Of a stretch of 64,000 bases of DNA, positions 441 to 64,000 are shown piece after piece (within the stretch, counting starts at the first letter, position 1; each line of letters opens with the position of its first letter). The notes beneath the pieces were generated by a model. It was not told the origin of the DNA. It saw nothing but the letters and a program-made list of their open reading frames with translations, and did no database searches. Position numbers and translations under genes: made by a program. The DNA is from Schistocephalus solidus (Eukaryota; Platyhelminthes; Cestoda; Diphyllobothriidea; Diphyllobothriidae): the NCBI GenBank assembly GCA_017591395.1, contig WEDG01004056.1, forward strand, positions 62,001-126,000. Direction: 5' to 3'.

Positions 441-510
441 CCAACTGATGAGCCTTACCCCTCGCCGCTGAGTCTTCCACCGACAGAATTTCGGCGAATC
501 ACGTGACTGG
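441..510 (+). ncRNA. Diverged hammerhead ribozyme, family 1
   Basis: The core CTGATGA is perfect, followed by stem II GCC with GGC. GAA is followed by a palindromic stem III, TCACGTGA. Compared with the young copies, the 15.1/16.1 pair is swapped from A-U to U-A, which departs from the conserved hammerhead pair. Stem I is weakened by a mismatch. Activity is doubtful. Confidence 0.5.
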
Positions 511-540
511 ATTTTTAGCTAACACCTCTGAGTGTGGTGT

Positions 541-6543: not shown

Positions 6544-6924
6544 TTTTGAGGACATTCCATCAACCGTTACCTGCGATCGCCTCAGGGCCGTCGAGTTTTT
6601 GGCCTCGTCGCGGGGTCTGTTGAAGTTCTTCAACATCCTCGCGACGTCTGACGAGACTGGCCAACCGGTACTCTCTCGTCTCGGCAGTCTTCAGACAGTC
6701 TACGCAGATGTTATGGGCAATATTGTGCGCCTGGAGTTAGCTGTGAGAACGTTATGTGAGGAAAAAAAACCTCTCAGCAAGAATGCCTCGAAAAACACCA
6801 AGCATCCCTCCGTCAATCTCAAGTCCCTGGATATTTCTCTGCAGGACATCATATCGGCTGAAATGCAAGCCGGTCGATGTCGCAACATCGGTTCAGCCTA
6901 CTTTGCAATGCTTTGGCTCTGTAG
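6544..6924 (+). CDS. GLTP domain, central exon with the lipid headgroup site
   Basis: Glycolipid-transfer-protein fold: the family carries sphingolipids between membranes in the cytosol. Acceptor CACGCAG; donor after CTCTGTAG. The exon enters in phase 2 and leaves in phase 2. It shows the family signature DVMGNIVRL, where Asp and Asn of the D-x3-N-x2-K motif bind the sugar headgroup. The motif lysine (K55 in human GLTP) is arginine here. The exon ends in AYFAMLWLCR, holding the conserved Trp of the LWLKR motif that stacks on the headgroup. Predicted helices at SRGLLKFFNILATSDETG and LDISLQDIISAEM fit the all-alpha fold. The Trp plus D/N set and the seamless joins to 3306-3496 and 13700-13868 make the assignment firm at family level. 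Confidence 0.88.
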
Positions 6925-12545: not shown

Positions 12546-13699
12546 TTACGAGCGAAGTTTCAAGGTCGAGATATTTTATCATTTTCGCAGGTCTCAAAGA
12601 ATGCGAAAAAAAAGCATTTCTGTTCTGGAAACGGCTATAGTTACGTGGACGTTTTGATAACCTCACTGCTTCATTCATCAGAATGGTATGGTAGCTGTTC
12701 CTGATGTCCATATTTTCTGGATATTAGACATTTGTTTAAATTGGTTAACAGGTGCCCACCTATCGGTTATGGGTCTCACTAGTCCCGTTCTGCCTTTGGC
12801 CCCTCTCTCGAGCCCGCCAACAGCTGCATAACGGCCAGTTTTATGGACAAGGAACATCACTGAAAAAAACAACGGAAAATGTAATGACGATTTCTGACTT
12901 TTTATCCGTCAATAGCCAGCCATAAAAATGTGCCATCACTCAGCCAAAGTTTATACACCCCTCAACTGAGTGCGTCAGGCAGCATGCTCGTTCCTTGTAC
13001 CTGCAACAGAAGTCTTCCCATGTGGTCCCATAGAGATAATAAGACCAGGAAAACCGACAGGGCCGTGTGTGAGGCAACGAAACATCTCATCTCGTTTTGT
13101 CGTTCGACTTCATCTAGGGCCCTCGCAGACCGTCGCATCGTGACCAGTGACACATGCAAAGAGGAGAGTGGGTACCAACAAAAAGCATGAAAATGATAAC
13201 TCAAACCCAGGTTACCAGAACCTGAGATTCAAACCCGTGTTCTTCGGTCATCGAGCGTTAATAAGTTCAACGGTCTTCCCCTGGGTCACAAGCCCGTTGT
13301 CCGGTCGAGTATGCTCGTGGATATTGGCCGTCGTGATAGAGTTTTCCACCAAGGTTCTAATGTTGGCTTTATCTCTTAACGACATCAGTTTCCAGGTTAT
13401 ACTTCTCACTCGTCAATAACTGCGGTTGGGTCTATCCTGTCTGACGACGTCTTGTAAGCCAGAAATTGCCCTCCCCGGCTCCCTCATCCTCGTATCATCC
13501 CTGTCAGTTGGAACACTAGCTGGTCGTATTGAGCTGTATTCGTCTACTAATTGTATACGTCGTAGGATTTGAGTCTTTCGCCCACTTCAATTCATAATCA
13601 TTGCAGTCCTGGGCATTCGGACTTTTCATAAATTTTGTCAATTCTCTATATGTGGCTGTGGTCACTCATTTGCCTGCTTTTTCCTTCCGCACACTTTAG
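12546..13699. other. Intron remainder
   Basis: Nothing recognisable except 12765-12850. That stretch resembles the tail of the family 2b repeat (CTCACTAGTCCCGTTCTGCC, TCTCGAGCCCGCC). Confidence 0.35.
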
Positions 13700-13868
13700 A
13701 GCTCTGAACTTTGCGACGGACTTTATTGCCGGATTGTTCGCAGACTACACGACTGCAGGTGAACCCACCGGCACCAGCGTAACCACTCATGTGCAAACAG
13801 CCGCTACTAATGCCTACGTCCGGACCCTGCGCCCCTTCCACGATTGGACACTTAGAAACACTGCAATG
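13700..13868 (+). CDS. GLTP domain, exon with the conserved His
   Basis: Acceptor CACACTTTAG, donor GTAAGA. The single leading A completes the Arg codon of LWLCR, so the border reads LWLCR-ALNFATDFIAGLF, matching the family's LWLKR-x-LxF stretch. The exon ends AYVRTLRPFHDWTLRNTAM, in line with the AY-x6-H-x-W motif. The His of FHDW corresponds to H140 of human GLTP, a headgroup ligand. It leaves in phase 0 and joins the last exon at 16066. Between the two motifs is a short Thr-rich loop (TAGEPTGTSVTTHVQTAATN), longer than the loop in human GLTP as far as I recall. Confidence 0.87.
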
Positions 13869-16065
13869 GTAAGAGAGCTAGGGAGAGCGACAGAGAGCAC
13901 GCGCGCACCCTTGTGTCCTAGCGCCCTTGTGCCTATACTTCTACGGCCTGCTTGTAACCGATTTTTATGCTTCCTATGCAATCAGAAAGATGCTCCTTCT
14001 TCAAGGCAGCAGTTCACGCAATGCCACAACACGACTTGCCTAACCATATGCAGTAGCACCTCGTAGGCATTCTGGAGACTTTGAAAGTCATCGAATATCT
14101 GCCAAGCAGCTGCTGCGAGCAGCGAAACAGAGGCGGTCAGAAAAATGCATGCTGATAAATTACATCCGTAGCTTGATGTACCGCACCTACCGGGATAGGC
14201 GTCGCTCACATGTCTGCATTAGCACTTCTGGTGGACGTTTCGACAACATACGTCAATTGTGCCATGATGGGGTTCCTAAATCATCAACGAGCTCTGATTC
14301 ACCTGACAAACGACAAATGCCTCGGAAAGCCAATCCTAACTGCAAATTCGAATGCATGATATGTGTTAGACCTTATGTAGCTGGGGACGCCGCTAGCCTC
14401 CTAGACGGTACAGGGGTTCGACTTTGACGCAATTTATGCAACGGACCCTGATAAAGATCCCATTGGAAGGCTGCTGAGGTGCCTATTACCAGCCGACGGC
14501 CTCTCAATCGACTCTCACATTGACGTGCCCATGGCCTGCGCGATTTAAGTTCTAAATCGACAAGATGCAGAAGAGACTTTAAGGTTAAAATAGTTTAGCT
14601 CACGGTGCGATCTGCCAAGCCAGTCAGATCTATCGCGGACCGCCTGCTCGTTTCTCATAGAATAACTCTGTATTCGATCTTCACGACCATAAGTACGGCT
14701 TTACTGTCCAAATATTGTTAACTGACAGAATATTTTCTTGAAACGGCTTTCCGTTATCACACATACACACCAAGTTACTTTCGAGGCGGACATTTTTTTA
14801 TTATTTCCTGTCCTGTTTCATCTGAAGCATGTTTAATGAGGTGCGTTTTTCCGGGGTGACCTTGTCAAGGAAGCAGAGGCTGTCAGCGGGATCAGTGAAG
14901 TAGCATATTCACATCCGTAGGCTGAAGAGGTCTGTGCATGATGGGCATCAGCAGGAGGGCGTCCGTACGATAGGATTCGAACCTGGGTCCGCTGGTTAAC
15001 GCAACATAGATATTACCATTACGCGCTTCGATTTCGTGCATCAGGCACGGCGGGCACATAGATAGAGTTCTATGTAACCAGACCCGATTACAGGCCTCAT
15101 GGTTGTCGAACTCGTCAGAATACAAACCAACTCTCCAGATGAATGGCTCCAATTCCTTTGGATTGCAGTTGACTCACCTTCGCTTGCCTTGTGTGCTGAG
15201 ACTGTTTTTTTTATTTTTAATGTTTATAAAGTATTTACATGCCAGGTTGCATTTGCCAAACTTATGTTAAAATAAGTAGCCTTTGCTGGATTCGAACCCA
15301 CGCTTGCAAGGGGAAGGCACTACTACAGCCAACGCTCTAGCCAACTGAGCTATGAGGCCCCACCGAGAGCCGTGAATTTAACCGCACTTGAGTCACGTCA
15401 GCCGCCCAGCCTACTGCAAGGTATGAAATCCGCCAAATCTGATACATTAAGCTGACTGACCAAACAGGATTTCCTAAGCAATCAATCTTTAATCCACCAG
15501 CCTGATGTAATAAGCAGGGGTTTAATAAATAAATAAATAATTAATTAATTAATTTATCTGACATAACTCTCGAAAACTCTGCGGCCTTGTTGAGACACAA
15601 ACCCACAACAGTAAGGACAAGACTTCTATATAGCCAACGTTCTAACCACTTGAACCACGAGGTCTCAGCTTGCTATTGGGGGATCATATCCCACAGACGC
15701 TGCCGAGGTTTTACCCTTGCGTCCCATGAGTACTTTGTATTTGCCAAAATCTCTATCAATGTTATTTTCCTTCGGGAATGCTGCCGGGCTGATTTCACAT
15801 ATCTACGCTCGAGCTTATACGACACTTACTGTCAGGTGGTGAAGCTCTGATTAACATCTGCTCTGATTAACATCTGCTAATTACTTATCTGATAGTAGAG
15901 CCCCTTCTCTGATCATCTGCGCAGTGTGAATGAGCATGTTTGTGTTTCTGCCTCCCCGGTGGTATCTTTTGGTTCCGATTGATTGAATAATGACAAAATA
16001 GGACGCAGCAGATCTCTATCGCTAATTTCGCACATTCATCCTCACCCTCTGTCCTCCCCTACAAG
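13869..16065. other. Intron
   Basis: Contains tRNA-like repeats listed separately and an (AATA)n/(AATT)n tract at about 15524-15556. Ends CCCCTACAAG. Confidence 0.4.
15272..15362 (-). repeat. tRNA-derived repeat with pol III boxes
   Basis: On the minus strand it has a box A-like TAGCTCAGTTGGCTAGAGCG and a box B GGTTCGAATCC, and starts GGGGCCTCA. A similar but more worn head lies at about 15585-15675 on the same strand (CGTGGTTCAAGTGGTTAG). A box-B-like GGATTCGAACC at 14970-14980 may be a third. The anticodon region is not a clean stem-loop, so I call these SINE-type remnants rather than tRNA genes. Confidence 0.5.
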
Positions 16066-17129: not shown

Positions 17130-17240
17130 ATTTTTTCTACCGAGTCGCTGAACTGCTCACAATTGCAACAGCAGCCGTAGAAAAACTGGCAAAACACCTG
17201 CCTGGGTCTTTAAATAGTACCTAAGAGGGAGTACGGTAAA
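17130..17240 (+). repeat. Remnant of the family 1 hammerhead repeat
   Basis: Aligns by eye to the 3' half of the ribozyme and the following unit body: GAACTGCTCACA..., ACTGGCAAAACACC, TGCCTGGGTCTT, GAGTACGGTAAAG. The core is destroyed. Confidence 0.5.
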
Positions 17241-17713: not shown

Positions 17714-17766
<53 letters not shown>

Positions 17767-18035
17767 AATATGGAACCCAAAAAGACAAGGGAGATCGGAA
17801 TGGCCATTTCTAGCTTATTAGCCATCATCAGCCAGTCATACCCAATCCCAAGTGTGGGAGATTAAGGATTCGAACCCTTGTCTTTGTAGGTTCCATATTA
17901 TCAAAATATGCTACATTTCGCTATGCGACCGCCTATGAGGGCTCAAGTCTTATTTCCAGGGCACAACGGAACGTAAATATTCCTTAAGCAGATCGGTGAG
18001 CCACACACTATCATATATATATATATATATATATG
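17500..18035. repeat. Family 2 hammerhead-tRNA repeats around a TA tract
   Basis: 17530-17610 is a worn plus-strand copy (CGATGACGGCAAATAAGCC). Then comes a TA tract (17716-17763), a minus-strand half unit (17764-17905) with the ribozyme and a box B-like head, and then the plus-strand unit tail (17905-18012: GCTACATTTCGCTATGCGAC, AGGGCACAACGGAAC, TTAAGCAGATCGGTGAGCC) running into a second TA tract (18013-18034). The head-to-head arrangement and the TA borders repeat what is seen at 62017-63652. Confidence 0.7.
17793..17837 (-). ncRNA. Hammerhead ribozyme-like motif, family 2
   Basis: Read on the minus strand: stem I GACTGG, core CTGATGA, stem II TGGCT/loop AATA/AGCTA, GAA, palindromic stem III ATGGCCAT, H17 = T, stem I return CCGATC. 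All core bases are present. Stem II pairs fully if one G-U is counted. Stem I has one mismatch and one wobble. Confidence 0.65.
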
Positions 18036-21699: not shown

Positions 21700-22085
21700 T
21701 GATAAACGCTCACTGAGTACAAACGGTACTCACTCGTTTCGCTTTACCTTGCGGCTCACTCTCGAGCCCCGTCATCAGCCGCGTAGTGACTAGTAGAAGA
21801 AAAGGTAGATGCACAATGTCAAGGGAGACTGGAATTGCCATTGCTGGCTCGGTTTCCATCATCTGCCAGTCATACCTAACCCTAGGTGGTGCAAAACACG
21901 AGGATTGAACCCGCAATCTGTTGCTCCGAGGGGTCGTTGTCTGGTAATTCCAGTCTCCCGTGTATTTGCTGGCAATATTCGTCTGCCTTTTCTACTACTA
22001 ACCACTGCGTGGCTGCTGGCAGGGCTCGGGAGTGAATATCAAGGCAGAACAGAACGAGTGAGTTCCGTTAGCGATCAGTGAGCGT
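21700..22085 (-). repeat. Family 2b repeat (tRNA-like head, worn hammerhead, alternative tail)
   Basis: A worn ribozyme region lies at 21829-21877 on the minus strand (GACTGGCAGATGATGG..., AATTCCAGTC). A box-B-like stretch follows it. On both sides are copies of a tail containing GTTGATxAACGCTCAxTGA, CTCACTCGTTTCGC and TCTCGAGCCCCGTCA. The same tail occurs at 29055-29145, 29280-29370, 35400-35520, 40855-40960 and 41130-41230. Confidence 0.6.
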
Positions 22086-31150: not shown

Positions 31151-32639
31151 TTCATTTCATGTGGGTCTCCTGTAATTTTTCCAACTTTGCTTAGAACGTA
31201 TTTTTTGCTATCAAGGTGTATGCTCTGAATTCTGTTTTCTACTGTCAGTGTTTTTTATTATTGTAAAACGACACTTCGCAACGGTCAAGTAATCTGCTGA
31301 ACGAATTTTTTGTGGTGTTACCAATCCCCTCCACTCCTACCTTATTACCGCACAGTCATTTTGCCCGATGCGCCGAGGTTTTTGTCACATAGCTTTTATT
31401 GCATAGACCTATCAACAGTATGTACTTTCGTTTTTTAGCACGCACGCACGCACGTGTAAAGAGACCAAAATACAGAACCTGAGGTTGGAACTGTCTCTCG
31501 CAGTAGAGGTCCATTTTTAGCAATTTGATTCTTGCATAATCTGTTAATTTATCCTATTTTCTTAGCGCATGGAGCCACTTTTGCTGAAAATTTCGAGTAA
31601 AAATTTCAAAGTAAAGAATATTCCCCTCTGTGGCCAATGGATGAGAACTAAATCAATCGACGTATCGATTTGGTGCCGGTGTACGAAGCCCTGCGCAGTC
31701 ACCTCCAAACTGGAATCAATTATTACTGATTGGTTTTTACCCCTACACGTGTCGCTTTTTTTTGTTGCTACTATCAAATTGACGATCAACTCTTGCAGAA
31801 AGATGAAAGCTCCGAATAAAAAGCAAATTGGTCCGGTGCTCGAACAGACTTCTCCTTCGCTCATATAATATTTTTTTCTCTGGAATCCTACTTTACTTCC
31901 TGTTAAAGATCGGTCTAGACGGCTGGGTTGCTTAGGCCTCCCTGTGAATTAAGCTGTCACAACAAAACTCCTCCATGCGACAACACACAGTAAAGGGGGG
32001 TTTGCGCATAGTGAGCGAACCTTCAACTAATTAGCTAACAGACGACCGCTCAACACAAACCGACCAGTTAAGAGAGTAGATTTGTCTTTAAAACAGGCCT
32101 TTGCCTGAAAAATAAAGTGACACAATAGAGAGAAAAAATGCGAGAAAGTGCAGTACACGACCAGATGACGTAAACGCTAAACACATAGAGGGCGGAATGT
32201 ATACTAGGAGATAACCATGAATATGCATATGTGTGAAGTTGGGAAGGCCCCGTGCACTCGAAAGATAAGCAAGGGAGGAAAGAGTGGAGGGTAATAACTA
32301 TCACAGCCAACATGCGACACATATAAGAGGGGGCGGGAAGGGAGGAGTGGAGGATTTAAAAGGATAATTTGTGAAGGGAGAAGGGAGGGGAAAGCTAATG
32401 GCAGATCAGAAACGAAGTATCCACGATGACTGGACTGGAGTCGGCGGCAGACTACTCATCAGTAAGTCGGTAGGTGGGGTTCTCGTAACCTCGGATGACC
32501 AGATTACGAGTGTACTGATCGACTGGAACAGAGCAACGAAAAACTGAAGCACAGTAAGAAACCATTCTAATTGTCATCAAAATAACAGCGGAATGTCGGA
32601 CACGCCCTGGCGTGCCACCAGTTTCAAAAACTGGAGTAC
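31151..32639. other. Intergenic stretch
   Basis: Contains a short CGCA tract near 31440. No gene supported. Confidence 0.35.
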
Positions 32640-32960
32640 CGACAAAGACAAGGCAGATCGAAATGACCATTTCTAGCTTATTAGCCATCATCGGCTACGT
32701 GAAGCTAACCTAAGGCGTGGATCCACTACCTTCGGTCATTGATTAGAACATTCTATCAATGAGCAACGGACTTATTATCCTGCTGGTTGTGATAAGAACT
32801 CTGGATTGGATATGATTGTCTGATGACAGCTAATAAGCCAGAAATGACCATTCCGGTATTTCTTGACTTTGTCGGTACTCCATCAAATGTATATGTTAGT
32901 AGTAGCAATGCGACTGCCCGCGAGGGCTCTAGATTGAGCCAAAAGGCACAACGGGACAAG
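32640..32960. repeat. Family 2 repeat halves in opposite orientation
   Basis: Minus-strand ribozyme remnant at about 32652-32696 and plus-strand ribozyme at about 32816-32862 (CTGATGACAGCTAATAAGCC then AGAAATGACCATTCCGG), followed by the family 2 tail (GACTGCCCGCGAGGGCTCTA, GGCACAACGGGAC). The tRNA-like heads are missing or eroded. Confidence 0.6.
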
Positions 32961-33039
32961 CATGTTCCGTAATTTGAGCAGTGGAGGCCTCTTCACCATG
33001 TTTTGAAAGAACCCTTGGCTGTGGTAATGGGTGCGTGTT

Positions 33040-35269: not shown

Positions 35270-35525
35270 GGGTTAGCTGGACTATGAAACCTGAAATGGC
35301 AATTTCTGTCTAATTAGTCGTCATCAGCCAGCCATACCTGACCCCGATGGTGCACCACCTCCGCCAATAAAGCCAAATGACAATTTTAGTAACCCCTGGC
35401 TTCGTTGGTAATGTTGATCTGTTTGTAGCCACTGTGCGGCTACTGGTGGGGCTCTTAAGTGAGCAGCAAAGTAGAACGGGTTGAGTGGATTCTGTAAGCG
35501 ATCAGTCAGACGTCCATCAATAAGA
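35270..35525 (-). repeat. Family 2b repeat, worn
   Basis: Minus-strand ribozyme remnant at 35290-35335 (GGCTGATGACGACTAATTAG) next to a GGTGCACCA-type stretch, then the 2b tail at 35400-35525. Confidence 0.55.
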
Positions 35526-38430: not shown

Positions 38431-40086
38431 GACACAAGCCTCACAATACACACATCACACACTACTTACTTCGTGAGCAGTTTTACAGTAGATGCCCTAG
38501 CTTATGAAATGTCAACCGAAATTGCAAAATGTCTTTTCGTTTCTAACAAATTACTAAGGTAGCATTGTCATATTGACTATTTTGTAGTCGGTTAGATATT
38601 TTTGTCACGTCAGGAGGCCGGTTTTGAACAACCTACCTTCTGACCGTCTGCAAAATGCATACTTTGAAAAACTTAATACTTAAGTAGTATGCCAAATTGT
38701 CTTTTAAATTGTTTTTAATGGGAATTTTCACAACCCTAAGTAGTATGCATTCTCATCAAAGAGTTTCGATGCCCTTATAAATTCAAATAAACTATATAAA
38801 AACATGCACGAAAAATATTCTTTCTTGTATGAATTTGGTAACAAATTACACATTCTTCAAAGTTCATTGTTGAAGAACGGGAATCTTTCGGTTTTAAAAA
38901 GCTTACAAATTGCTGAATAATTCTGAAGCCTATCAGCCGTTACACTTGAATTCAGGGTTTCAAACTACATTTTGTATGGATTCCGTCTAAAGAATTTGCG
39001 ACCAAACGAGCATAAGAAAGAATATTTTTGTACATGTTTTCATGCAATACACTGAAAAATATTAGAAAACCTAAAATCAATGAGGAAAATGCATTTTTAA
39101 CCGGTTTTTTTTGCCGGCCGATAAAAAGTAGCTCGTTTCAAAAGCCGACATCCTGACGTGGGTAAAAAATCTTGAGGTTTAAGCTGCAAGATAATCATTA
39201 TGACAACACTACTTAAGTAATTTGTTCGAAACGATAACACATTTCAGAGGTGCATTTGACATTCCATACGATAGCGAGTCTACTGAATATCTGCCGGGAC
39301 GGCCGGACCAGAGCCTCAAAACTCCTTACCAGATTTTACTTTCTCTCGCCTGCGGTCATAGCTTCCGAACAGAAAATTGCATTTAAGCCGCCTCGACCTA
39401 CCACCACCCTCATGGTTATGTCTTGCTCGTTACTACACGATGGCCAAGACCTGACAGAAACTCGGAGTTTCCGGACGCAAGTAATCGCCCGCATTTGAGG
39501 CCAGACTGCTACTTCTCAAGTGAAGGAAAACCGCTCTACAGCACTTGAGATCGTCTTCTGACAGGCCTGTTCGCTGCAGGGGCGGTAAAATGCACAGAAC
39601 TGAGGAAAATTAGAAACTTTTGAGGGGGTGGTTTTTTGCACCAGAGTGGAAATGCGCCTCGTTCACGGCAGGTTCTACGGAGGAGGGGGCGGAGAAGGAG
39701 GAGGAGATCATTTTACGCAAATATGAATGGTTAACTGAATAACCAACTGACTGGGTGAGTTTAATAGAATTTCCCGCAAATCTCTCCCAGCATAAGGAAG
39801 TATTCCTGCATGCAAGAATTCCACCTTTAGTACGTTTTACTGAAGGAAACAGGGAGTGAGTCGGAATTGTTTGCCGTCATCGCGGTCGTAGGCTCTTTGC
39901 ACCCCGTGCCAGACGTGAATTGAAGTCCAGAATCCTCAAGCGCCCGGTAGGTAAAGTCACCAGACGCAAGACCAGTCTAGTCTGTGCTAGAGTCAACCAG
40001 TCAGGCAGAAGGTTATGCTAAATGGAGGGACAGAATGAGAGAAAATGGACGGTTGGCGGAAGGATGGTTGCGGCAGCACGACTCAC
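38431..40086. other. Intron
   Basis: No exon or recognised element. Confidence 0.35.
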
Positions 40087-40374
40087 GTGGAAGGCGCGGT
40101 AGCGACTGCTTCTGGTACCACCGGGACGACGGCCGCCCAGAGAGGATTTGAAACGGTTCATCAAGCGGTCCGTGAGACTGGTCAGTTTAGCGGTGGCAGT
40201 GGCGGTGGTGTCCGACGGCCGTGGGGGCTCCAGCAGACCCACCCGGGAACGTACGCAAACACACAGGTAGCAGCCCAAAACTATCAGCAGGCTGAGAAGA
40301 CTGACAAATATGACCAGAGTCGTTGAAATCAGGCCATAGATGTGGCTGTATTCGGTACTTGCAGTTGAGTCATT
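40087..40374 (-). CDS. Single-pass membrane segment exon of an unidentified protein
   Basis: Acceptor TTATTGTTCAG and donor CAC before GTGAGTCG, both on the minus strand; 96 codons, phase 0 on both sides. It starts NDSTASTEYSHIYG, then one clear transmembrane helix, LISTTLVIFVSLLSLLIVLG, followed by CYLCVCVRSR: cysteines and basic residues suggest the downstream side is cytoplasmic. The tail is basic (RLMNRFKSSLGGRRPGG) and leads in frame to the proline-rich exon at 37295-37508. Upstream it could join the exon at 43145-43486 (phase 0). The product family is unknown to me. Confidence 0.65.
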
Positions 40375-40854: not shown

Positions 40855-41235
40855 ATTAATGAACGCTCACCGATCGCTAACGGATCTCACTCGTCCCGTT
40901 CTGCCTTGGGGCTCACTCTCGATTCCCGCAAGCAGCCACATCGTCGCTAGAAGTAGTAGTAGAGGCTGATGAATATGGCCGCCAAAAACAAGAGAGACTG
41001 GAATGACCATTTCTGGCTTATAAGCTATCATCAGCCGGTCATACCTAACTCAAGGTGCCTAACCACTCGACCGGCGAACGCTCTAACCTACTGAGCCACG
41101 TGCTTGTTGTCTTGCCGGGAGATACTGAGATTCGTTGATGAACGCTCAGCGATCGCTAACGGAACTAACTCATCGCTTTTGCCTTGGCGGTCACTTTCAA
41201 GCTCCGCTAGACTGGAAACATCTCATCATGCGCTG
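40855..41235 (-). repeat. Family 2b hammerhead-tRNA repeat
   Basis: Minus-strand unit with the 2b tail on both sides (40855-40960 and 41130-41235), a ribozyme at 40996-41040 and a worn tRNA-like head at about 41060-41115 (GTGGCTCAGTAGGTTAGAGCG on the minus strand). Confidence 0.65.
40996..41040 (-). ncRNA. Hammerhead ribozyme-like motif, family 2b
   Basis: Minus strand: stem I GACCGG with CCAGTC (one mismatch), core CTGATGA, stem II TAGCT / TTAT / AAGCCA region with one mismatch, GAA, palindrome-like stem III ATGGTCAT, H17 = T. All invariant core bases are present. Confidence 0.6.
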
Positions 41236-43020: not shown

Positions 43021-43144
43021 ATTGGCTTTTCCTGGAATTAACCGCGAGGTCAACTTCCGTACTTGGATGGGCCGTTCCTATTCCCGGGTCCACTTAAGGT
43101 GGACCATACAGGTAATCCTTACCAAAACCACCCAGGCCACCTAC

Positions 43145-43486
43145 CGTAGTGTACTGCTGTAAGTCCATCAGAAGTCGATCCAGGTACTGCGTAGCTTCCA
43201 ACCACTCCTTCCGATGACTCTCGTTGCGCCAAGCTGAATCGCGTGAGGCGGCAAGAGTCTGCGAGAAGAGAGCCCAGTGCTTGCTGAATTCGTCCATATC
43301 GACGACAGCACCTCCACCGCTACCGCCGTCCGAGACAAGTTGACGCATTTGTTGCAAGGCTAACGCCTTAGCCTCGGTCATTGCGCTCTGGGCCAAGTTC
43401 AGTTCATCAGAGAGGCGTTTATAGGCCGCACGCAGGGGAGCGGAATACTCTGCCGGTTTACCTTCTCGAACGACTCTACCCATCAC
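43145..43486 (-). CDS. Helical (coiled-coil-like) exon of an unidentified protein
   Basis: Acceptor ACGTCCTCAG before GTGATGGGTAG on the minus strand. Frame: VMGRVVREGKPAEYSAPLRA, AYKRLSDELNLAQSAMTEAK, ALALQQMRQLVSDGG, then DMDEFSKHWALFSQTLAASR and a long helix ending LLMDLQQYTT. Donor ACG before GTAGGT gives phase 0 on both sides. Alternatives: a donor GTAAGG at 43122 (phase 1), or read-through to the TAA at 43094 with tail GGLGGFGKDYLYGPP. Heptad-like spacing suggests a coiled coil or spectrin-like helical bundle. A phase-0 end would allow splicing to the membrane exon at 40374. Confidence 0.6.
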
Positions 43487-43999: not shown

Positions 44000-44160
44000 G
44001 CGTGGATGTTACACGCGGCATGCACGTCATACGACTTACGAAATGATTTACCATACTGGCAGCACGGGTACAAACTGAATATAAGCCCCACCACGTGTTT
44101 CGCCGATATTCTGCCACTGCATGAAACAGCTGCGAGAGGTTCGGCTCACCGGTGGATTGC
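44000..44160 (-). repeat. Family 1 hammerhead repeat remnant, minus strand
   Basis: Ribozyme remnant at 44085-44157: on the minus strand GAGCCGAACC...ATATCGGCGAAACACGTGG, so stem II (GCCGA/TCGGC), GAAA and ACACGTG are intact. CTGAGGA has become CCGGTGA and the cleavage-site TC is lost. Unit body follows to about 44000. A separate plus-strand body fragment may lie at 44500-44620 (ATGACGCGCTTATCC, GATTGATTTTGGGC). Confidence 0.55.
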
Positions 44161-46029
44161 TTCTGTTTAGCTTACTAAGAAAAACTTCGTCAAGCTGCAG
44201 TAAATCGGTCATAAAACTGGTTTTTAGGCGTATACCGAAAGGTTGGGTGATAACTTGGACCGAGGTCTATTAGCCATATCCGGATAAACGAGTTATATTC
44301 ATTAAACGGTCGGCATATGGGCTGTGGAAATTAAAAAGACGATTCATTTCAAGAGCGGAATAACTGCAAAAAAGCACATAGTGAATGCTTGGAGATCTGC
44401 TAATGAACCACGTCTGTCGAAGCCGTGCCATGCACTTACAGAATAGCAGCGGAACACGTGGATTGGCCTTTTTTACCTGTTATCCCGGTATATACTAATG
44501 GTTTTTTGTTGTGAGGTTAAAGGAATATGACGCGCTTATCCCGCTGTAGCTGATTGATTTTGGGCAAAAATAGGAAGAGCAAATTTCGGTATGCGATAAT
44601 AACCATACTTCAGACTGATGAATTCGGAAATAAAAGCAGTAATTAGAAGTATGGGCTGTCAGAGACGGCAGCAAGCCACCATTATTGATTTATATTCACA
44701 AATGAACACAGAGTTCTAACCCAATGCAGCAACCAGGTTTTTTTAAATTTGTACGAAATTGAGTAATTTTTTTGTTCAAGTGCGCAGGCTGATGATACAT
44801 CAAGGTGGCAACAATCTCCACACACTTGACGGAAAATGAAGACTTGTTCTTATTATTCAATTGGTTAGTCAAAAGAGAAGTGTCAATGCTTGTAGTTGGA
44901 CAAAGACGTTAAAAAGGCGTTTAGTCGAAAATTTAATTATTTACCAGTCAAAGGCCATCTCTCGATAGCTCTTAGGTTTCAATTCTATGCCATTTAAATG
45001 GCCTAAAACAGAAACAGAAAAATGTTTCCCAAAGCAAACAATTAAGACCTGCAGAATGGTAAACATTTCATGGCTAAAGCGAGGATTTCATCCAATTCAG
45101 CCTACCACGTAAACAATTCTCGTCATCCCTAGTACGGTCATCATCATCATCATCATCATCATCATGATTATCGTCAGTATCATCAAGAATGGAAAACTGT
45201 GTAACTTAAAAATCATCGTCATGATGAAGTAACTCCGGGATAAGTTATGACTTCGAAACCAGAAGCCGAAAGTGGACTTTTTTGTATGTGTCACCTAGTG
45301 CCCCTAACGGTCCACGTGATAGCTGAGCTGGATCAACATTGGAGGCAAATCAGGATACGGCATGCCATATGTGGGTTGAGTTCCCATAACACGGGGAAGG
45401 GGGGGGGAGGCTTGCCGAACGTGAGTACACAGGCTCATGCTGCACTTTGCCACTTCAAGAGAGAGGAGAAGAATACGCTTTATTTTGAAGTATCTTTCAA
45501 AATTTTCAGCAAAAATATAAATGGCTCCATTCACTTGCCATTTATGGATCATATCCACATTAAAGGAAACTAAAGTGTGAAGCTTAGTTGAGTTTCGTGC
45601 AACGGAGTGACAAAGGGTACGCAGTCTGAGGTGACCCGATGGGGGTAATAATTTTCCGAGGACAGCCAAGCGGTTTCATTAGAAGCGTGGGACTTTATGT
45701 ATGCAGACAAAAGATGCAAGTGTGCTTTCTATGGTACTGCAATAACATAACATCGGGAACACCATTGCAACATTTTTTTCGCAAACGCATGCTGAGTATT
45801 AAACAAGAAAGGTAATCTTTTATCCAAGGTGTGACCCAAAAAGAAGGAGAGTGTTCACTTTCCCATTGATTAAGTATACTTAAAGCCTATGTTTGTCATT
45901 TGACAGTAACATTAGAGAGACATCCGTCGATCCACCCGACTGCAGGCTGCAATACGGGTAATCATGGTTCGTCCTGAATCTCCAGTTCCAGAGTCATCAG
46001 AGACAGTCATATACAGAAAAGAGCTGCCA
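44161..46029. other. Probable intron
   Basis: Holds the possible family 1 body fragment at 44500-44620 and an (ATC)n microsatellite at 45138-45165. No exon found. Confidence 0.35.
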
Positions 46030-52380: not shown

Positions 52381-53966
52381 ACCTAAATACTTAACTCTAC
52401 TTCCCCAGTATTTGGCGCTAAGCCGCAAGCAATGTGGGGGGTCCCCTTTTCCGTGTCCTGCTCAGGCCTCAACGGAAGCCATTCAATTAGAGATTTCAAA
52501 AAGTGCTTAAATGGCTTAACCATGCTCGTGCAGTGTGCGTCACTTTTGGCGGCCCTGCTGCAAGAAACAAATTCTCAATTCTAACAAAACTAGACTTCAC
52601 CCTCTGGGATATGGACGGTAGGGAAAAAAAAATAACAGTCACAGCAAATGAAGCTATCAGAGTCCTGTTCTCGTGTTCGCACACCAAAGTACTCTGCCGG
52701 CTTAAAACCTTCTTAAGCGCTATGGTTTAGAGGCCTCAAGGTGTTGATGCAGGGAGAGAGAGAGAGAGAGGAAGGAACTGCACAGAAAAGTCATCAATCC
52801 TCCCCCTTAAGGATAAGGCGTGGTCGCTGACCAGACATTTTTCGTTGTCCTGCACGCGTGAGTTCCGCTTTTCAGTCTCTGCTCAAACACCATTTTTGCC
52901 GGAATACGCACACCCATTAGGACGCTTATTAACGCTGGAAAACCAACTTTCCAAAGAGGAGTGGGAATGAGGCTGAGTTAAGACATGATATTAGCAGTAT
53001 TGATGGGAGTGAAACAAGCAGGAGAGAAAAAAAAGGGAGAAGAGGAACAGGACAAATAGCAAAAAGGAATAGGAATCGCTGGATTAGGAGTTATAGGAGA
53101 AGAATGGGGTATGAGGAGAATGGGGAGGGGTGGAAGCTGAAGGGGGAATGGCGTGCACGCAGGTATGAGGCCGAAGTTCTACTCTGTCAACCGGTTCCCA
53201 CGCATGGGTTTAACATGCGCTGTCAGCAAACTCATGACCCTCATCGAAAATGCTGGACAAACAACGCGGTTCATACAAAACGCTACCGCAAACAGAAGGT
53301 TTGCATTTCGTTCTGCAATCAGAAGAGTCGCGTTAATGGGATCCCTAGCAGTGAATATCAAAGCTCGGCTGAAGATCTTTGTCAGAAAATCGCAAACAAC
53401 ATCCTAAAGCGTCCCCTTATAAGTGACCTCATTTCCTGAAATTATCTACTGAACTGCTGGGGAGGAGAAGCAGTCACTGCATCATGTTGTCACGGAAAAC
53501 TGGAGTAATACCTGCCTGGTTTGCTTTGTTTGGGTAGACCCCGAAGATATGTGAATCAACAAAAGGGGACAGATGGGATTGCTGAAACGTTGCAAAAAGG
53601 CCAGTGGGTATCGTCCGGTTTCTGACTTTGCTCAGGAGGCAACTCGTTGATGGTTATGCCGATAAGCATACGCGGATGTCGACGGGGACTTCTGAGGGCC
53701 AGCGACTCGAGATAAGGGATGGAGGGAGGTGGAAGCGAGACAGTAAAGTGATGCTATTTATGACCTGCTCAGTCTCCGGGCTACCATGCACGCAGAAGCA
53801 GTCAACAACAGTCTAACCCTCCCCACTACTTGGGGTCTCCGCTGCAGTCCCTTATCACAATCACTCCCGTTATCTTTGCATGCCCCAGATCCGGCGCACG
53901 AAGGCATAACAAAGGATCAGTACGATGTCGCAGTGCACGGGGTGGCAGGGGGAGATAGCGATCGAG
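52381..53966. other. Probable intron
   Basis: Short (AG)n at 52752-52770. Frames at 53104-53439 have no domain or splice support. Confidence 0.3.
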
Positions 53967-54060
53967 GTGGAGGGAGGAGGAGGAAGAGGAGGAGGAGGAG
54001 GAGGAGGAGGAGGAGGAGGAGGAGGAGGAGGAGGAGGAGGAGGACGAGGAGGAGGAGGAG

Positions 54061-54096
<36 letters not shown>

Positions 54097-54237
54097 GAGG
54101 AGGAGGAGGAGGAGGAGGGAGGAGGAGGAGGAGGAGGAGGAGGGAGGGAGGGAGGAGGAGGAGGAGGGAGGAGGAGGAGGAGGAGGAGGAGGAGGAGGAG
54201 GAGGAGGAGGAGGAGGAGGAGGAGGAGGAGGAGAGAA
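53967..54237 (+). repeat. Purine-only GGA/GAC-rich microsatellite, about 270 bp
   Basis: Mainly (GGA)n with interspersed GGACGA and GGGA variants, almost entirely purine on the plus strand apart from the GAC steps at 54040-54090. All long open frames over it are translation of the repeat. Confidence 0.95.
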
Positions 54238-58730: not shown

Positions 58731-59008
58731 ACCCCCATGGCTTCTACTATGCGCGCGTGGCTCGATGACAGACTTCATTTAAGGACTTGCAACACTGTTG
58801 TGAGCACGGCTCCGCACATTTTTTTTAAAATCATCACCCTCATTAACTAACGTTCAAGTGCAAGCCCAGGAAAACAGCTGCTGCTACCAGCGTCGCTTTC
58901 TCTACCCATCGTTCTCACGCCAAGAAACGTCTGATCCGGATTGTGAAGATGTTTTTTGCTTCATATTTACACACAGAGTGCCCCCGGAAGGCGGACGGAA
59001 GAACTAAC

Positions 59009-59167
59009 CTGGAGTTGAGGTTCCTGTAGAGTATACTCAAATTCCTCCTCGCTAGCCTTGTCCTCTGGCTCAAATTCTGCATCCAGAACAGAGTGTTCTG
59101 CATTCTCCAGACGGATCCATTCGGCCTTGTCGTCCTCCCAAAGCAGCTCCAGTTGTCTGCGAGCATT
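59009..59167 (-). CDS. Acidic coiled-coil exon of the unidentified minus-strand protein
   Basis: Acceptor TGTTACATAG and donor CTCCAG before GTTAGT on the minus strand; 53 codons, phase 0 on both sides. Sequence NARRQLELLWEDDKAEWIRL, ENAEHSVLDAEFEPEDKASE, EEFEYTLQEPQLQ: charged, strongly helical in the first half. It continues the helix of the exon at 63681-63929 in frame. Family not recognised. Confidence 0.65.
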
Positions 59168-59509
59168 CTATGTAACAGGATAATATGATTTGATAAACCA
59201 AAGTATGTGGGGGTAATCGCAATTTAAGCAGTCAGCATTTTTGCAAAACCGGAGATACACTGTCTGCCGGTAGAGGGCGCCATCGCGCGGTCTTAGTCAC
59301 ACTGACGCAGGCGTTGATTAACCCGATAGGAAGGTCGACACCGCGGTTATCACAATAACCAGGTGCAGTGGCACCAGCCAAAATCGATAATTGCAAGACC
59401 GACCAACGCACCTGATAGTAGAATTTCTAGGCCAGTCTATATCTCTCAAGGATTTTTATAATTTATAATTGTTTTGAAACGCACAACAGGAAATATTTTG
59501 TGAAATTAC

Positions 59510-59799
59510 TAATTGGGGGGCGTGGATTCATGTGATTCGGACATGACTTTTCCAGTCTGACTCCAAAAATTCATTTTTCGGATCACCTAACTCGACGTCC
59601 TTCACTTAATAATTTTAGAAATTATTTCCTTGATTATTCTCTGGAGTTCATATACCAGAAACCGCCTAGAGAACGCTGCGGGACGAACTGAGCCCCTTGT
59701 TGTTGCGTCATTCAGCAGAAGAAACATCGTTGAACCACGTGTTTAGGCTTTAAGCTGGTATCTATGTCGAGAGTACGGTATGCCACGGTATAATGTCTT

Positions 59800-59803
<4 letters not shown>
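59510..59803 (+). repeat. Diverged family 1 hammerhead repeat unit
   Basis: Follows the young unit throughout (GATTCGGACATGACTTTTCC, CCTTGATTATTCTCTGGAG, TATACCAGAAACCGCCTAGA) and ends GTCTTTGCCATATAT in the TA tract at 59804, the same end point as the last young unit at 62016. The ribozyme (59683-59747) has lost part of the core (ACTGAGCC) and the cleavage site. Confidence 0.75.

Positions 59804-59863
<60 letters not shown>
59804..59863. repeat. (TA)n tract
   Basis: About 60 bp of alternating TA directly at the end of the family 1 unit. Confidence 0.97.
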
Positions 59864-59865
<2 letters not shown>

Positions 59866-60552
59866 CTAATTGAAGCAAAAATGTGCGTCCCCGGGCATAA
59901 ATCAGAAGAAGAGGCCGAGGTATCGACCAAACAGCCAGAGAAACGCTTGAAGCCTGGCACACCGTACGTTCGTTCATTAACCGTTGTACGATTCTCCCGG
60001 CGGCCTACCAGGCCTTACGAGTGCGGCTCAATCGACAGAATCGCAGGCAAGAAGTCAGACTGTTCGCGGTCGCAAGCAACCGCATAACGAGCCAGAACAC
60101 ATGCCTGAGTGAACCTAGGCCACGCACCAACACATTCCAGGGGATAACCGCGGAGAACGCAAACCAGCAAGACCTCCGGCCAGGCATGAACGTGAACGGA
60201 CGTGAACTTAGTTTGCGCACGAAAACCGATGATGAGCGTCTCCAACCCGATAGGAACGGAGACACCGGCAATGACTCAGCAACCACCGATGAGCCGTGCA
60301 CGGACAGATTCAAACGATGGACGAGAAACAGACATGCGGATCCGGTACACCAAACGCGGGCAATGCAGACGAGGTAAATGACACTTGCCATCCCGACACA
60401 GCCCCCAGGCGAGGTGAGGGAGAATAAAAAAATCAATGATCAGCAGGACAGCAACTAACTCCCCCACCCCCCTGCAGTGCATCCTGCACGAATAGCTGTC
60501 GAGCCAGCATGTTCAGAACCCATAAATACTGTGAGGCGCCGTACTGAACCTA
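59864..60552 (+). other. Unidentified segment between a TA tract and a family 3 motif
   Basis: Plus-strand frames of 74 and 118 codons (59863-60087, 60021-60377), charged and Arg/Thr-rich (RLQPDRNGDTGNDSATTDEP), no domain recognised. Bounded by the TA tract and, after 60552, a hammerhead-like motif. It may be the interior of a non-autonomous element. Confidence 0.35.
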
Positions 60553-60592
60553 CCTCCGACGATGGAATCTTGTTTGATTTTGAAACGTCAGG
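60553..60592 (+). ncRNA. Hammerhead-like motif, family 3
   Basis: Stem I CCT with AGG, core CCGACGA (U4 changed to C), T, stem II GGAATC with GATTTT (wobbles), GAA, palindromic stem III ACGT, C17. ATATTAAACC follows. Confidence 0.5.
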
Positions 60593-60627
60593 ATATTAAA
60601 CCTATTGTTCCCGTGATCGCCTCTTCT

Positions 60628-60631
<4 letters not shown>

Positions 60632-60669
<38 letters not shown>
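60632..60669. repeat. (TA)n tract
   Basis: Left border of the family 1 array. Confidence 0.97.
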
Positions 60670-60671
<2 letters not shown>

Positions 60672-60834
60672 ATTGTCTTCGACCCAAATGTTCATTGAAA
60701 TTTCGGGTCTGACCCTAAAAAGTCATGTCCGAATCACCTGACTCCATGTCCTGCACTTAATAATTTCAGAAATTATTTACCCGATTATTCTCTGGAGTCC
60801 ATATACCAGAAACCGCATAGAGAACGCTGGGGGA

Positions 60835-60906
60835 CCCACTGAGGAGCCGAACCCCTCGTTGCTGTGTCACACAGCAGCAGAAACATCGGCGAAACACGTG
60901 TCTGGG
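60835..60906 (+). ncRNA. Hammerhead ribozyme, family 1, unit 1
   Basis: Stem I CCCA with TGGG; core CTGAGGA (N7 = G is allowed); stem II GCCGA with TCGGC, its loop holding a hairpin GCTGTG-TCA-CACAGC; GAA; palindromic stem III ACACGTGT without loop; cleavage expected after C17 (60902) in GTC. All invariant positions (C3, U4, G5, A6, G8, A9, G12, A13, A14, A15.1, U16.1, H17) are present. Confidence 0.85.
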
Positions 60907-61189
60907 CTTTTAGCTAGTATCTATGTCGGAAGTACGGTATAACGTCTTTGTCATATAAGATTCATACTACTTGTAGAACTACTTGTTTGTAGAATGGGCA
61001 TTACGTGGTTATTCCACAGTGGTTGATTGTCTTCGACCCAAATGTTCATTGAAATTTCGGGTCTGACCCTAACAAAGTCATGTCCGAATCACCTGACTCC
61101 ATGTCCTGCACTTAATAATTTCAGAAATTATTTACCCAATTATTCTCTGGAGTCCATATACCAGAAACCGCATAGAGAACGCTGGGGGA

Positions 61190-61261
61190 CCCACTGAGGA
61201 GCCGAACCCCTCGTTGCTGTGTCACACAGCAGCAGAAACATCGGCGAAACACGTGTCTGGG
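61190..61261 (+). ncRNA. Hammerhead ribozyme, family 1, unit 2
   Basis: Same sequence as unit 1 in the ribozyme region. Predicted cleavage after 61257, so neighbouring ribozymes would release 355-nt monomers. Confidence 0.85.
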
Positions 61262-61543
61262 CTTTTAGCTAGTATCTATGTCGGAAGTACGGTATAACGT
61301 CTTTGTCATATAAGATTCATACTACTTGTAGAACTACTTGTTTGTAGAATGGGCATTACGTGGTTATTCCACAGTGGTTGATTGTCTTCGACCCAAATGT
61401 TCATTGAAATTTCGGGTCTGACCCTAAAAAGTCATGTCCGAATCACCTGACTCCATGTCCTGCACTTAATAATTTCAGAAATTATTTACCCGATTATTCT
61501 CTGGAGTCCATATACCAGAAACCGCATAGAGAACGCTGGGGGA

Positions 61544-61615
61544 CCCACTGAGGAGCCGAACCCCTCGTTGCTGTGTCACACAGCAGCAGAAACATCGGCG
61601 AAACACGTGTCTGGG
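61544..61615 (+). ncRNA. Hammerhead ribozyme, family 1, unit 3
   Basis: Identical ribozyme region; predicted cleavage after 61611. Confidence 0.85.
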
Positions 61616-61898
61616 CTTTTAAGCTAGTATCTATGTCGGAAGTACGGTATAACGTCTTTGTCATATAAGATTCATACTACTTGTAGAACTACTTGTTTGT
61701 AGAATGGGCATTACGTGGTTATTCCACAGTGGTTGATTGTCTTCGACCCAAATGTTCATTGAAATTTCGGGTCTGACCCTAAAAAGTCATGTCCGAATCA
61801 CCTGACTCCATGTCCTGCACTTAATAATTTCAGAAATTATTTACCCGATTATTCTCTGGAGTCCATATACCAGAAACCGCATAGAGAACGCTGGGGGA

Positions 61899-61970
61899 CC
61901 CACTGAGGAGCCGAACCCCTCGTTGCTGTGTCACACAGCAGCAGAAACATCGGCGAAACACGTGTCTGGG
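61899..61970 (+). ncRNA. Hammerhead ribozyme, family 1, unit 4
   Basis: Identical ribozyme region; predicted cleavage after 61966. Confidence 0.85.
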
Positions 61971-62014
61971 CTTTTAGCTAGTATCTATGTCGGAAGTACG
62001 GTATAACGTCTTTG

Positions 62015-62016
<2 letters not shown>

Positions 62017-62066
<50 letters not shown>
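62017..62066. repeat. (TA)n tract
   Basis: Separates the family 1 array from the family 2 array. Confidence 0.97.
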
Positions 62067-62071
<5 letters not shown>

Positions 62072-62099
62072 ATGAAATGGAACCGACAAAGACAAGGGA

Positions 62100-62144
62100 G
62101 ACCGGAATGGCCATTTCTGGTTTATACGCCGTCATCAGCCAGTC
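62100..62144 (-). ncRNA. Hammerhead ribozyme-like motif, family 2, inverted unit
   Basis: Minus strand: GACTGG, CTGATGA, stem II with a CGGC...AACCA arm (weakened), GAA, ATGGCCAT, T, CCGGTC. Stem I pairs over 6 bp with one G-U. Confidence 0.65.
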
Positions 62145-62160
62145 ATACCCAATCCCAAGT

Positions 62161-62230
62161 GTGGCACACCTGGGATTCGAACCCGCGACCTTTGGTATTT
62201 GAGTCGACCGCTCTTCCATTGAGCCACGGG
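62161..62230 (-). promoter_or_regulatory. tRNA-like pol III promoter head (minus strand copy)
   Basis: Minus strand: box A-like TGGCTCAATGGAAGAGCG and box B GGTTCGAATCC. Confidence 0.7.
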
Positions 62231-62406
62231 CTCGTTGTTTTGTCGGTTGTGATCGGGAATATGATGATATTGCTACACGTCGCAATGCGACCGCCTGCAA
62301 GAGCCCTAATCTGAGCTCCAGGGCACAACCGAACACACATGTTCCTTAGGCAGATCGGTGAGCCCCACACTATCATCATATTCCCGATCACAACCGACAA
62401 AACAAC

Positions 62407-62476
62407 GAGCCCGTGGCTCAATGGAAGAGCGTTCGACTCAAATACCAAAGGTCGCGGGTTCGAATCCCAGGTGTGC
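62407..62476 (+). promoter_or_regulatory. tRNA-like pol III promoter head, unit 1
   Basis: Box A TGGCTCAATGG and, about 35 bases on, box B GGTTCGAATCC. The D-arm GCTC/GAGC pairs; the anticodon arm does not, so it is not a functional tRNA. Equivalent heads at 62709-62778, 63011-63080 and 63313-63382. Confidence 0.75.
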
Positions 62477-62495
62477 CACACTTGGGATTGGGTAT

Positions 62496-62540
62496 GACTA
62501 GCTGATGACAGCTAATAAGCCAGAAATGGCCATTCCGGTC
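62496..62540 (+). ncRNA. Hammerhead ribozyme-like motif, family 2, unit 1
   Basis: Core CTGATGA and GAAA intact; stem III ATGGCCAT, H17 = T; stem I GACTAG/CCGGTC has one mismatch; stem II CAGCT/AGCCA has mismatches at the core-proximal end and one above. Confidence 0.65.
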
Positions 62541-62797
62541 TCTCTTGTCTTTTTCGGTTCCATTTTATCATATGCTACACGTCGCTAGGCGACTGCCTGC
62601 GAGGGCTCTAATATGAGCTCCAGGGCACAACGGAACATACATTTTCCTTAAGCAGATCGGTGATCCCCACACTATTATCATATTCCCGATCACAACCGAC
62701 AAAACAACGAGCCCATGGCTCAATGGTAGAGCGTTCGACTCAAATACCAAAGGTCGCGGGTTCGAATCCCAGGTGTGCCACACTTGGGATTGGGTAT

Positions 62798-62842
62798 GAC
62801 TGGCTGATGACAGCTAATAAGCCATAAATGGCCATTCCGGTC
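62798..62842 (+). ncRNA. Hammerhead-like motif, family 2, unit 2 (G12 lost)
   Basis: Stem I GACTGG/CCGGTC and core CTGATGA are intact, but GAAA reads TAAA, which should abolish cleavage. Confidence 0.6.
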
Positions 62843-63099
62843 TCCCTTGTCTTTGTCGGTTCCATTTCATCATATGCTACACGTCGCTATGCGACCGCCT
62901 GCGAGAGCTCTAATCTGAGCTCCAGGGCACAACGGAACATACATGTTCCTTAAGCAGATCGGTTAGCCCAACAATATCATCATATACCCGATAACAACCG
63001 ACAAAACAGCGAGCACGTGGCTCAATGGTAGAGCGTTCGACTCAAATACCAAAGGTCGCGGGTTCGAATCCCAGGTGTGCCACACTTGGTATTGGGTAT

Positions 63100-63144
63100 G
63101 ACTGGCTGATGACAGCTAATAAGCCATAAATGGCCATTCCTGTC
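63100..63144 (+). ncRNA. Hammerhead-like motif, family 2, unit 3 (G12 lost)
   Basis: Same TAAA change as unit 2, so units 2 and 3 share a recent ancestor; stem I return reads CCTGTC. Confidence 0.6.
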
Positions 63145-63401
63145 TCCCTTGTCTTTGTCGGTTCCATTTCATCATATGCTACACGTCGCTATGCGACCGC
63201 CTGCGAGAGCTCTTATCTGAGCTCCAGGGCACAACGGAACATGCATGTTCCTTAAGCAGATCGGTGAGCCCCACACTATCATCATATTCCCGATCACAAC
63301 CGACAAAACAACGAGCCCGTGGCTCAATGGTAGAGCGTTCGACTCAAATACCAATGGTCGCGGGTTCGAATCCCAGGTGTACTACACTTGGGATCGGGTT
63401 T

Positions 63402-63446
63402 GATTGGCTGATGACGGCTAATAAGCCAGAAATGGCCATTCCGGTC
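63402..63446 (+). ncRNA. Hammerhead ribozyme-like motif, family 2, unit 4
   Basis: GATTGG/CCGGTC stem I (wobbles), CTGATGA, stem II CGGCT/AGCCA, GAA, ATGGCCAT, T. Core complete. The C10.1/A11.1 pair is a mismatch, whereas the minus-strand copy at 17793 has U-A there. Confidence 0.65.
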
Positions 63447-63582
63447 TCCCTTGCTTTTGTCGGTTCCACCTTATCAACATATGCTACACGTCGCCATGCG
63501 ACCGCCTGCGAGAGCTCTAGTCTGAGCTCCAGGGCACAACGGAACATACATGTTCCTTAAGCAGATCGGTGAGCCCCACACT

Positions 63583-63585
<3 letters not shown>

Positions 63586-63652
<67 letters not shown>
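63586..63652. repeat. (TA)n tract
   Basis: Right border of the family 2 array, 29 bases from the exon at 63681-63929. Confidence 0.97.
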
Positions 63653-63655
<3 letters not shown>

Positions 63656-63680
63656 AGAGCGAGAGGGAGTTGAAACTTAC

Positions 63681-63929
63681 ACTAAGCGTTGCATTTATAG
63701 CCTCCATTCGCTCGTAGATTTTCAGACGGGCATCATGAGCCAGGCGAAATGCCTCGTTGGCCCACATGTTCTCCAGTTGTCTGCGCCTATCATCTGTAGT
63801 TTGCATCAGACGAAGAAATTTCTCTTCAAACTTTAATTGCTTCTGATTGGTCAATTGACGAAGAGCTGTCTGCTCGTCAATCGTGGTGTCCTCGCTCTTG
63901 ATCTCCACTGCACGGGCTTCGAGGTCAAA
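63681..63929 (-). CDS. Coiled-coil exon of an unidentified protein
   Basis: Acceptor CACCTTGAACGCAG and donor CTTAGT before GTAAGTTT on the minus strand; 83 codons, phase 0 on both sides. It begins FDLEARAVEIKSEDTTIDEQ, then LTNQKQLKFEEKFLRLMQTT, DDRRRQLENMWANEAFRLAH and DARLKIYERMEAINATLS: heptad-rich, highly charged, a coiled coil throughout. Joined to 59009-59167 the helix continues without break. Earlier exons lie right of the window. The TA tract and family 2 array sit at its donor side, so array expansion happens inside this gene's intron. Possible types include cytoskeletal or ciliary coiled-coil proteins, but nothing in the sequence decides. Confidence 0.7.
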
Positions 63930-64000
63930 CTGCGTTCAAGGTGGAAGATGTAAAAAAGTAACACGTGCCTGGGCTGTAATTTCGACGGTCAGCGACGGAG

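Follow-up and report, generated by a model that had tools for sequence, protein, structure and literature searches.

A probable young retrozyme insertion with type I hammerhead motifs in a tapeworm intron

The locus and its host gene

The DNA analysed here, referred to as the window, is a single stretch of 64 kb from the tapeworm Schistocephalus solidus. Near one end of it lies a minus-strand gene, of which two exons (63681-63932 and 59006-59167) match a protein of unknown function from Dibothriocephalus latus with 71% identity over 89% of the query. Residues 2-85 of that protein correspond to positions 63932-63681 and residues 86-139 to positions 59167-59006, both on the minus strand, and the 4513-bp intron flanked by residues 85 and 86 (59168-63680, minus strand) has GT-AG ends, GTAAGT...ATAG. 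This intron holds a tandem array of 355-bp units, a second array made of 302-bp units, and a single diverged copy of the 355-bp unit, referred to below as the 59-kb copy. The 355-bp array lies on the plus strand, opposite to the host gene. As its ribozyme motifs are read on the plus strand, the transcript of the host gene would carry their complement only and should not be cut.

The 355-bp array

The array occupies 1348 bp (60669-62016, plus strand) and consists of three full units, at 60669-61022 (354 nt), 61023-61377 (355 nt) and 61378-61732 (355 nt), followed by a partial unit of 284 nt at 61733-62016. Tandem Repeats Finder, run on the window, delimits it as 60669-62021 with a period of 355, 3.8 copies and 99% matches. 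An earlier reading made from the sequence only had described a four-unit array of 354-355 bp with a ribozyme in every unit; the four ribozymes are indeed there, but the fourth unit is incomplete. The units run head-to-tail without any LTR-internal-LTR layout. GC content is 43.7% for the unit at 61023-61377, and the longest stop-to-stop stretch in six frames is 66 aa, in keeping with the earlier statement that the array has no open reading frame. A pattern search of the doubled 355-bp unit found no B box on either strand.

The remaining units are 99.4%, 99.7% and 100% identical to the first, and the differences are confined to three alignment columns (51, 116 and 245), one of which lies a few bases 3' of the ribozyme motif. 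The sequence-only reading had taken the identity of the ribozyme regions as a possible sign of selection. That suggestion has to be dropped, because three differences placed at random would all miss the 76-nt motif with a probability of 0.49; identical ribozymes are then no evidence for selection.

Hammerhead motifs

The four motifs lie on the plus strand at 60833-60908, 61188-61263, 61542-61617 and 61897-61972, each being recovered both by the Rfam hammerhead model RF00163 and by a structural descriptor. All four contain CCCA, CTGAGGA, GCCGA...TCGGC, GAAA, CACGTG, TC and TGGG, and all four have the features of a type I hammerhead, namely CUGANGA, GAAA, the A15.1-U16.1 pair, an NUH cut site, three stems and an open end on stem I. 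The stem III that can form within each motif is one pair only. Cleavage is predicted between 60902 and 60903 in the first motif and after 61257, 61611 and 61966 in the others; with C17 at 60902, 61257, 61611 and 61966 the predicted RNAs released would be 355, 354 and 355 nt long.

A strict descriptor, with at least 4 bp in stems I and II and at least 3 bp in stem III, gives four matches in the window, all within the array, and one match in 1500 Markov-1 control windows of 64 kb. The claim that every unit has a complete hammerhead with all invariant positions is sustained. A loose descriptor returns seven rows from the window (the four array motifs, one at 63408, and one at 17831 found twice) and 23 matches from 1500 Markov-1 windows. 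CTGANGA is absent from the minus strand of the array. Exact ribozyme patterns found no match in viral or genome contig collections, where tapeworm DNA is not expected.

The comparison with Rfam that the sequence-only reading had proposed gives a divided answer. At the gathering score Rfam finds no hammerhead in the window, the sole Rfam match above cut-off being a tRNA. When an E-value threshold is used instead, all four array motifs are matched at 22.8 bits against a gathering score of 34 (E 0.04 in a search of 4501 bases against 4227 families), and the alignment spans model positions 1-45 of 45, untruncated. The gathering score is a curator's cut-off and not a structural feature. Stem II of the array motifs has 37 nt where RF00163 expects 6, forming a long extra hairpin, and this insert is the likely cause of the low score.

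Predicted fold

The stem III of an individual unit has just one base pair, C-G, and a palindromic ACGU tetraloop. Because of this single pair a monomer transcript is expected to cut poorly, and efficient cutting should need two units paired as a double hammerhead, to judge from the predicted fold and from the axolotl example considered below. When 510 nt containing two motifs are folded, the structure of minimum energy is such a double hammerhead, with an 8-bp joint stem III, stem I formed between units, and CUGAGGA left open. Its shape alone is cited here, as the energy is indistinct from that of shuffled sequences: the gain on dimer formation is -11.5 kcal/mol and 84 of 300 shuffles are at least as low. 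A thermodynamic proof of dimerization was rejected on these figures. The monomer fold lies 1.5 sd below shuffles (z -1.5), and the circular monomer fold, computed without a shuffle control, has an energy of -94.3 kcal/mol.

Older copies of the 355-bp family

The 355-bp family is represented in the window by the array and four further loci. The 59-kb copy (59489-59803, plus strand) matches at 213 of 254 aligned bases and its ribozyme core is deleted. An old tandem dimer (57-593, plus strand) matches at 360 of 497 aligned bases and retains remnants of two cores at 88 and 445, where Rfam finds no hammerhead match. Two more copies are old and decayed: one at 44010-44303 on the minus strand (the 44-kb copy; nhmmer E 1.4e-13), and one at 17139-17240 on the plus strand, made up of the ribozyme region and the 3' part (the 17-kb copy; E 7.8e-7). 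The array is, by its sequence, a young member of the family and the older copies have damaged cores. Two weak nhmmer rows of the doubled unit (E 2e-7 and 5e-7) at 44207-44567, on the plus strand and so opposite to the 44-kb copy, are possibly another inverted piece of the family; the same search also gives minus-strand rows inside the array.

The ribozyme region was aligned from five loci, leaving out array units 2-4 and the poorly kept 17-kb copy. CACGTG is unchanged in all five rows. Invariant columns number 25 of 104, with a longest run of six (permutation p 0.009, tested after being noticed). The structure used for scoring comes from a single row of the five, and on that footing 84% of cells are paired against 27-39% in slid controls; column shuffles reach the observed value in 25 of 500 cases for paired cells, 32 of 500 for the score and 70 of 500 for pairs changed on both sides, a weak covariation control. 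Since the old dimer is itself tandem and CACGTG is invariant in all five rows, tandem form and a palindromic stem III are, on these alignments, features of the family.

Ends of the elements

Both flanks of the array are (AT)n. A tract of (AT)19 (60632-60669) marks its 5' end, and (AT)25 (62017-62066) lies directly at its 3' end and meets the 302-bp element on its other side. The 59-kb copy likewise ends at its 3' side on (AT)30 (59804-59863). The array and the 59-kb copy stop at one common unit position (...GTCTTTGTC or ...GTCTTTGCC), where (AT)25 and (AT)30, respectively, follow immediately; this common stop corresponds to unit position about 284 and is seen at these two loci only. There is no AT tract at the 3' end of the old dimer or of the 44-kb copy. 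All six of the AT tracts of at least 12 nt in the window adjoin an edge of the 355-bp or 302-bp family, where chance would give 0.023 per tract, a count not fully independent because the element edges were partly set where the tracts begin. No target-site duplication is readable inside (AT)n. The unit sequence just past the stop point is ATATA, which would allow a broken (AT)n end to serve as primer. An inverted 5' piece is found in three elements: the 59-kb copy (about 59491-59551), the 302-bp array (62070-62272) and a small element of the 302-bp family (17761-17877).

A fixed 3' end, an AT-rich target, tandem copies and 5' inversions would together fit target-primed reverse transcription. 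Excerpts of a paper on Penelope-like elements describe a protein that cuts AT-rich DNA and reverse transcription that starts at a fixed internal site (PMC11167929). The enzyme that copies metazoan retrozymes back to DNA is, in the sections of PMC7229834 used here, only proposed, Penelope-like elements being named as a strong candidate. By analogy, the copier of the array would most likely be an AT-cutting enzyme such as that of a Penelope-like element.

The neighbouring 302-bp family

The second array (62068-63585, plus strand) begins with the inverted 203-bp piece at 62070-62272, continues with about 4.4 forward units, and has (AT)n on both sides. Identity between its units is 92-94%, and it is older than the 355-bp array. 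Its units contain a tRNA-like part (RF00005, 29.8 bits) and, by pattern, a B box. They also contain a hammerhead-like motif with CUGAUGA, GAAA and a palindromic UGGCCA. The best example (63402-63446, plus strand, core at 63408) has a 6-bp stem I, C.A at the base of stem II, a palindromic stem III and an AUU cut triplet. Rfam gives no hammerhead match to the motif of this family.

The motif was collected from 14 places, this being the number left when six opposite-strand readings of the same palindrome are taken from the 20 rows of the pattern search. Across them 77% of cells are paired, but covariation is lacking: no pair is changed on both sides, and 500 of 500 shuffles attain that value. Next to the core stands C.A or another non-pair in nine of the 14 places and U-A in five, and G12 has changed to U in two of the four forward units of the array. 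Conservation of the core columns is 0.95 against 0.82, a figure partly biased because GAAA and stem III belonged to the pattern by which the places were picked; restricted to the CUGANGA columns, the comparison gives 0.94 against 0.82 (p 0.006). From its sequence the motif is probably a hammerhead, and a weakening of it is likely. The mismatch at the base of stem II has a parallel in the axolotl motif HHR_Amex2, which has one at the same place and still cuts, according to extracts from PMC7229834.

Two of the eight 302-bp 3' ends examined share a fixed end point; the other six are older and continue into different sequence without an AT tract, which suggests subfamilies. Older members lie at 32629-32992, 40860-41143, 21733-22082 and 35280-35508. 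The small element mentioned above (17716-18034) lies between (AT)24 and (AT)11 and consists of the inverted piece at 17761-17877 followed by a forward piece reaching 18012; in its motif, whose core is at 17831 on the minus strand, stem II starts from a paired U-A at its base.

Comparison with known systems

Metazoan non-LTR retrozymes are described, in the portion of PMC7229834 used here, as tandem non-coding repeats of 150-450 bp with type I hammerheads, GC under 50% and no LTRs, and platyhelminths are among the phyla named there as hosts (Cervera and de la Pena 2020, PMC7229834). The array resembles them in its tandem non-coding units of 354-355 bp, each with one type I hammerhead, in its GC content of 43.7%, and in having dispersed copies. 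According to the abstract of that paper most invertebrate retrozyme motifs self-cleave efficiently and amphibian ones act as dimers (PMC7229834); unlike those invertebrate motifs, the tapeworm motif has an amphibian-like stem III. HHR_Amex1 of the axolotl, from a 330-bp repeat, is reported in part of the same source to have a helix III of a single pair with a palindromic tetraloop, and to cut poorly alone and well as a dimer (PMC7229834). As far as that account goes, the array is similar in unit size and in its single-pair stem III with a palindromic tetraloop but differs from the amphibian motif in the long extra hairpin of stem II; the likeness is one of description and not of sequence. The array is flanked by AT tracts; flanks of this kind do not come up in the portion of PMC7229834 used here, and the word 'microsatellite' has no occurrence in its main text. 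No paper on tapeworm retrozymes was found among the literature matches listed, which were part of the whole.

SINE-like elements of the SMalpha type carry internal Pol III promoter boxes. Unlike SMalpha, the 355-bp unit has no B box by pattern, whereas the 302-bp unit has one. The SMalpha and W-element repeats of Schistosoma have type I hammerheads, with an extremely short stem III in the candidates and functional evidence reported, and SMalpha is called SINE-like, in the parts of PMC8490949 drawn on here. Within those limits the array is like both in being a flatworm repeat with type I hammerheads, again by description and not by sequence. Penelope-like elements are portrayed in excerpts of PMC11167929 as having tandem copies, a type I hammerhead, an AT-rich target and reverse transcription that begins at one set internal site. 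The array, as compared with those excerpts, shares the tandem arrangement, the type I hammerhead, the position on an AT tract and the fixed 3' end. Such elements code for a reverse transcriptase that has a GIY-YIG nuclease, whereas the array encodes nothing over 66 aa.

Origin of the array

The array is, in our view, very probably a non-LTR metazoan retrozyme that inserted recently in the tapeworm, copied from RNA circles at (AT)n. The retrozyme-like character claimed by the sequence-only reading is upheld by the type I hammerhead found in each 355-bp tandem unit, the 43.7% GC, the lack of an open reading frame, the dispersed copies that differ in age, and a 3' end common to an independent copy. 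From the observed sequence, motifs, predicted fold, common 3' end, AT flanks, older dispersed copies, intronic place and strand, we infer transcription, cleavage, RNA circles and the identity of the enzyme. In a plus-strand transcript of the array, successive units would pair through their palindromic stem III sequences, and the resulting double hammerhead would cut once per unit. Small RNA circles are the presumed vehicle by which metazoan retrozymes spread. A reverse transcriptase would be supplied in trans, most likely an AT-cutting one such as that of a Penelope-like element; copying would begin on an (AT)n target, from a fixed point of the circle at about unit position 284, and go round the circle about 3.8 times to give the array.

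The near-identity of the units within a single block could also arise if one retrozyme copy had been expanded at the DNA level, by unequal crossing-over or rolling-circle amplification, into a satellite array that is now silent and in which the ribozymes are passengers. We regard this as unlikely, since the array stops on an AT tract at the 3' point where a diverged independent copy also ends, the tandem form recurs in the old dimer at 57-593, and all four ribozyme cores are intact. That the array is what remains of a Penelope-like element, its tandem pseudo-LTRs with their own hammerhead surviving and the coding part lost, seems improbable, even though such elements are, in the excerpts of PMC11167929, tandem, with type I hammerheads of little or no stem III and AT-rich targets. 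The units measure 354-355 bp and none of their open stretches exceeds 66 aa, and the core remnants of the old dimer are 357 bp apart, which would leave no room there for a reverse transcriptase. A chance likeness to the hammerhead has the Rfam score below gathering in its favour; against it, RF00163 is matched over its full length, the strict descriptor has one match in 1500 Markov windows, and the palindromic stem III is invariant in five of five diverged loci. We consider it highly improbable.

Retrozymes of this kind are already known and platyhelminths are already named as hosts; what is of interest in the retrozyme insertion proposed here is its ends and an amphibian-like stem III in an invertebrate. 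By analogy with the axolotl motif, the array would place an amphibian-like, dimer-type ribozyme in a tapeworm. Clean ends in two insertions of one family make the mobilization step testable. If the common 3' end holds genome-wide, DNA sequence by itself could show where on the circle copying starts and what its target is, and these could then be matched to an enzyme.

The 355-bp and 302-bp families have unrelated bodies and lie in one intron; both are tandem, with a hammerhead or hammerhead-like motif and a palindromic stem III, and the young elements of either family stop at a fixed point particular to that family, immediately at (AT)n. Across the two families three elements carry an inverted 5' piece. 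Tentatively, and with some doubt on our part, one AT-cutting reverse transcriptase, most likely Penelope-like, may mobilize self-cleaved RNA circles in tapeworms, the start point on the circle being readable from the genomic ends. If true, this two-family reading would bear on which enzyme moves metazoan retrozymes.

Other features of the window

Two further exons on the minus strand (40039-40374 and 43103-43483) match a hypothetical protein of Spirometra sp. Aus1 with 74% identity over 66% of the query; a third protein query from the window gave no match. At 71-74% protein identity, the Dibothriocephalus latus and Spirometra matches point to a diphyllobothriid-like tapeworm as host, probably a species other than these two. 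An open stretch at 13632-14063 on the plus strand has a match to the GLTP (glycolipid transfer protein) domain that barely passes the Pfam cut-off, with 27.2 against 25.6 bits, and a weaker GLTP match lies at 6458-6949. A long GAG trinucleotide repeat of 88 copies extends from 53964 to 54233.
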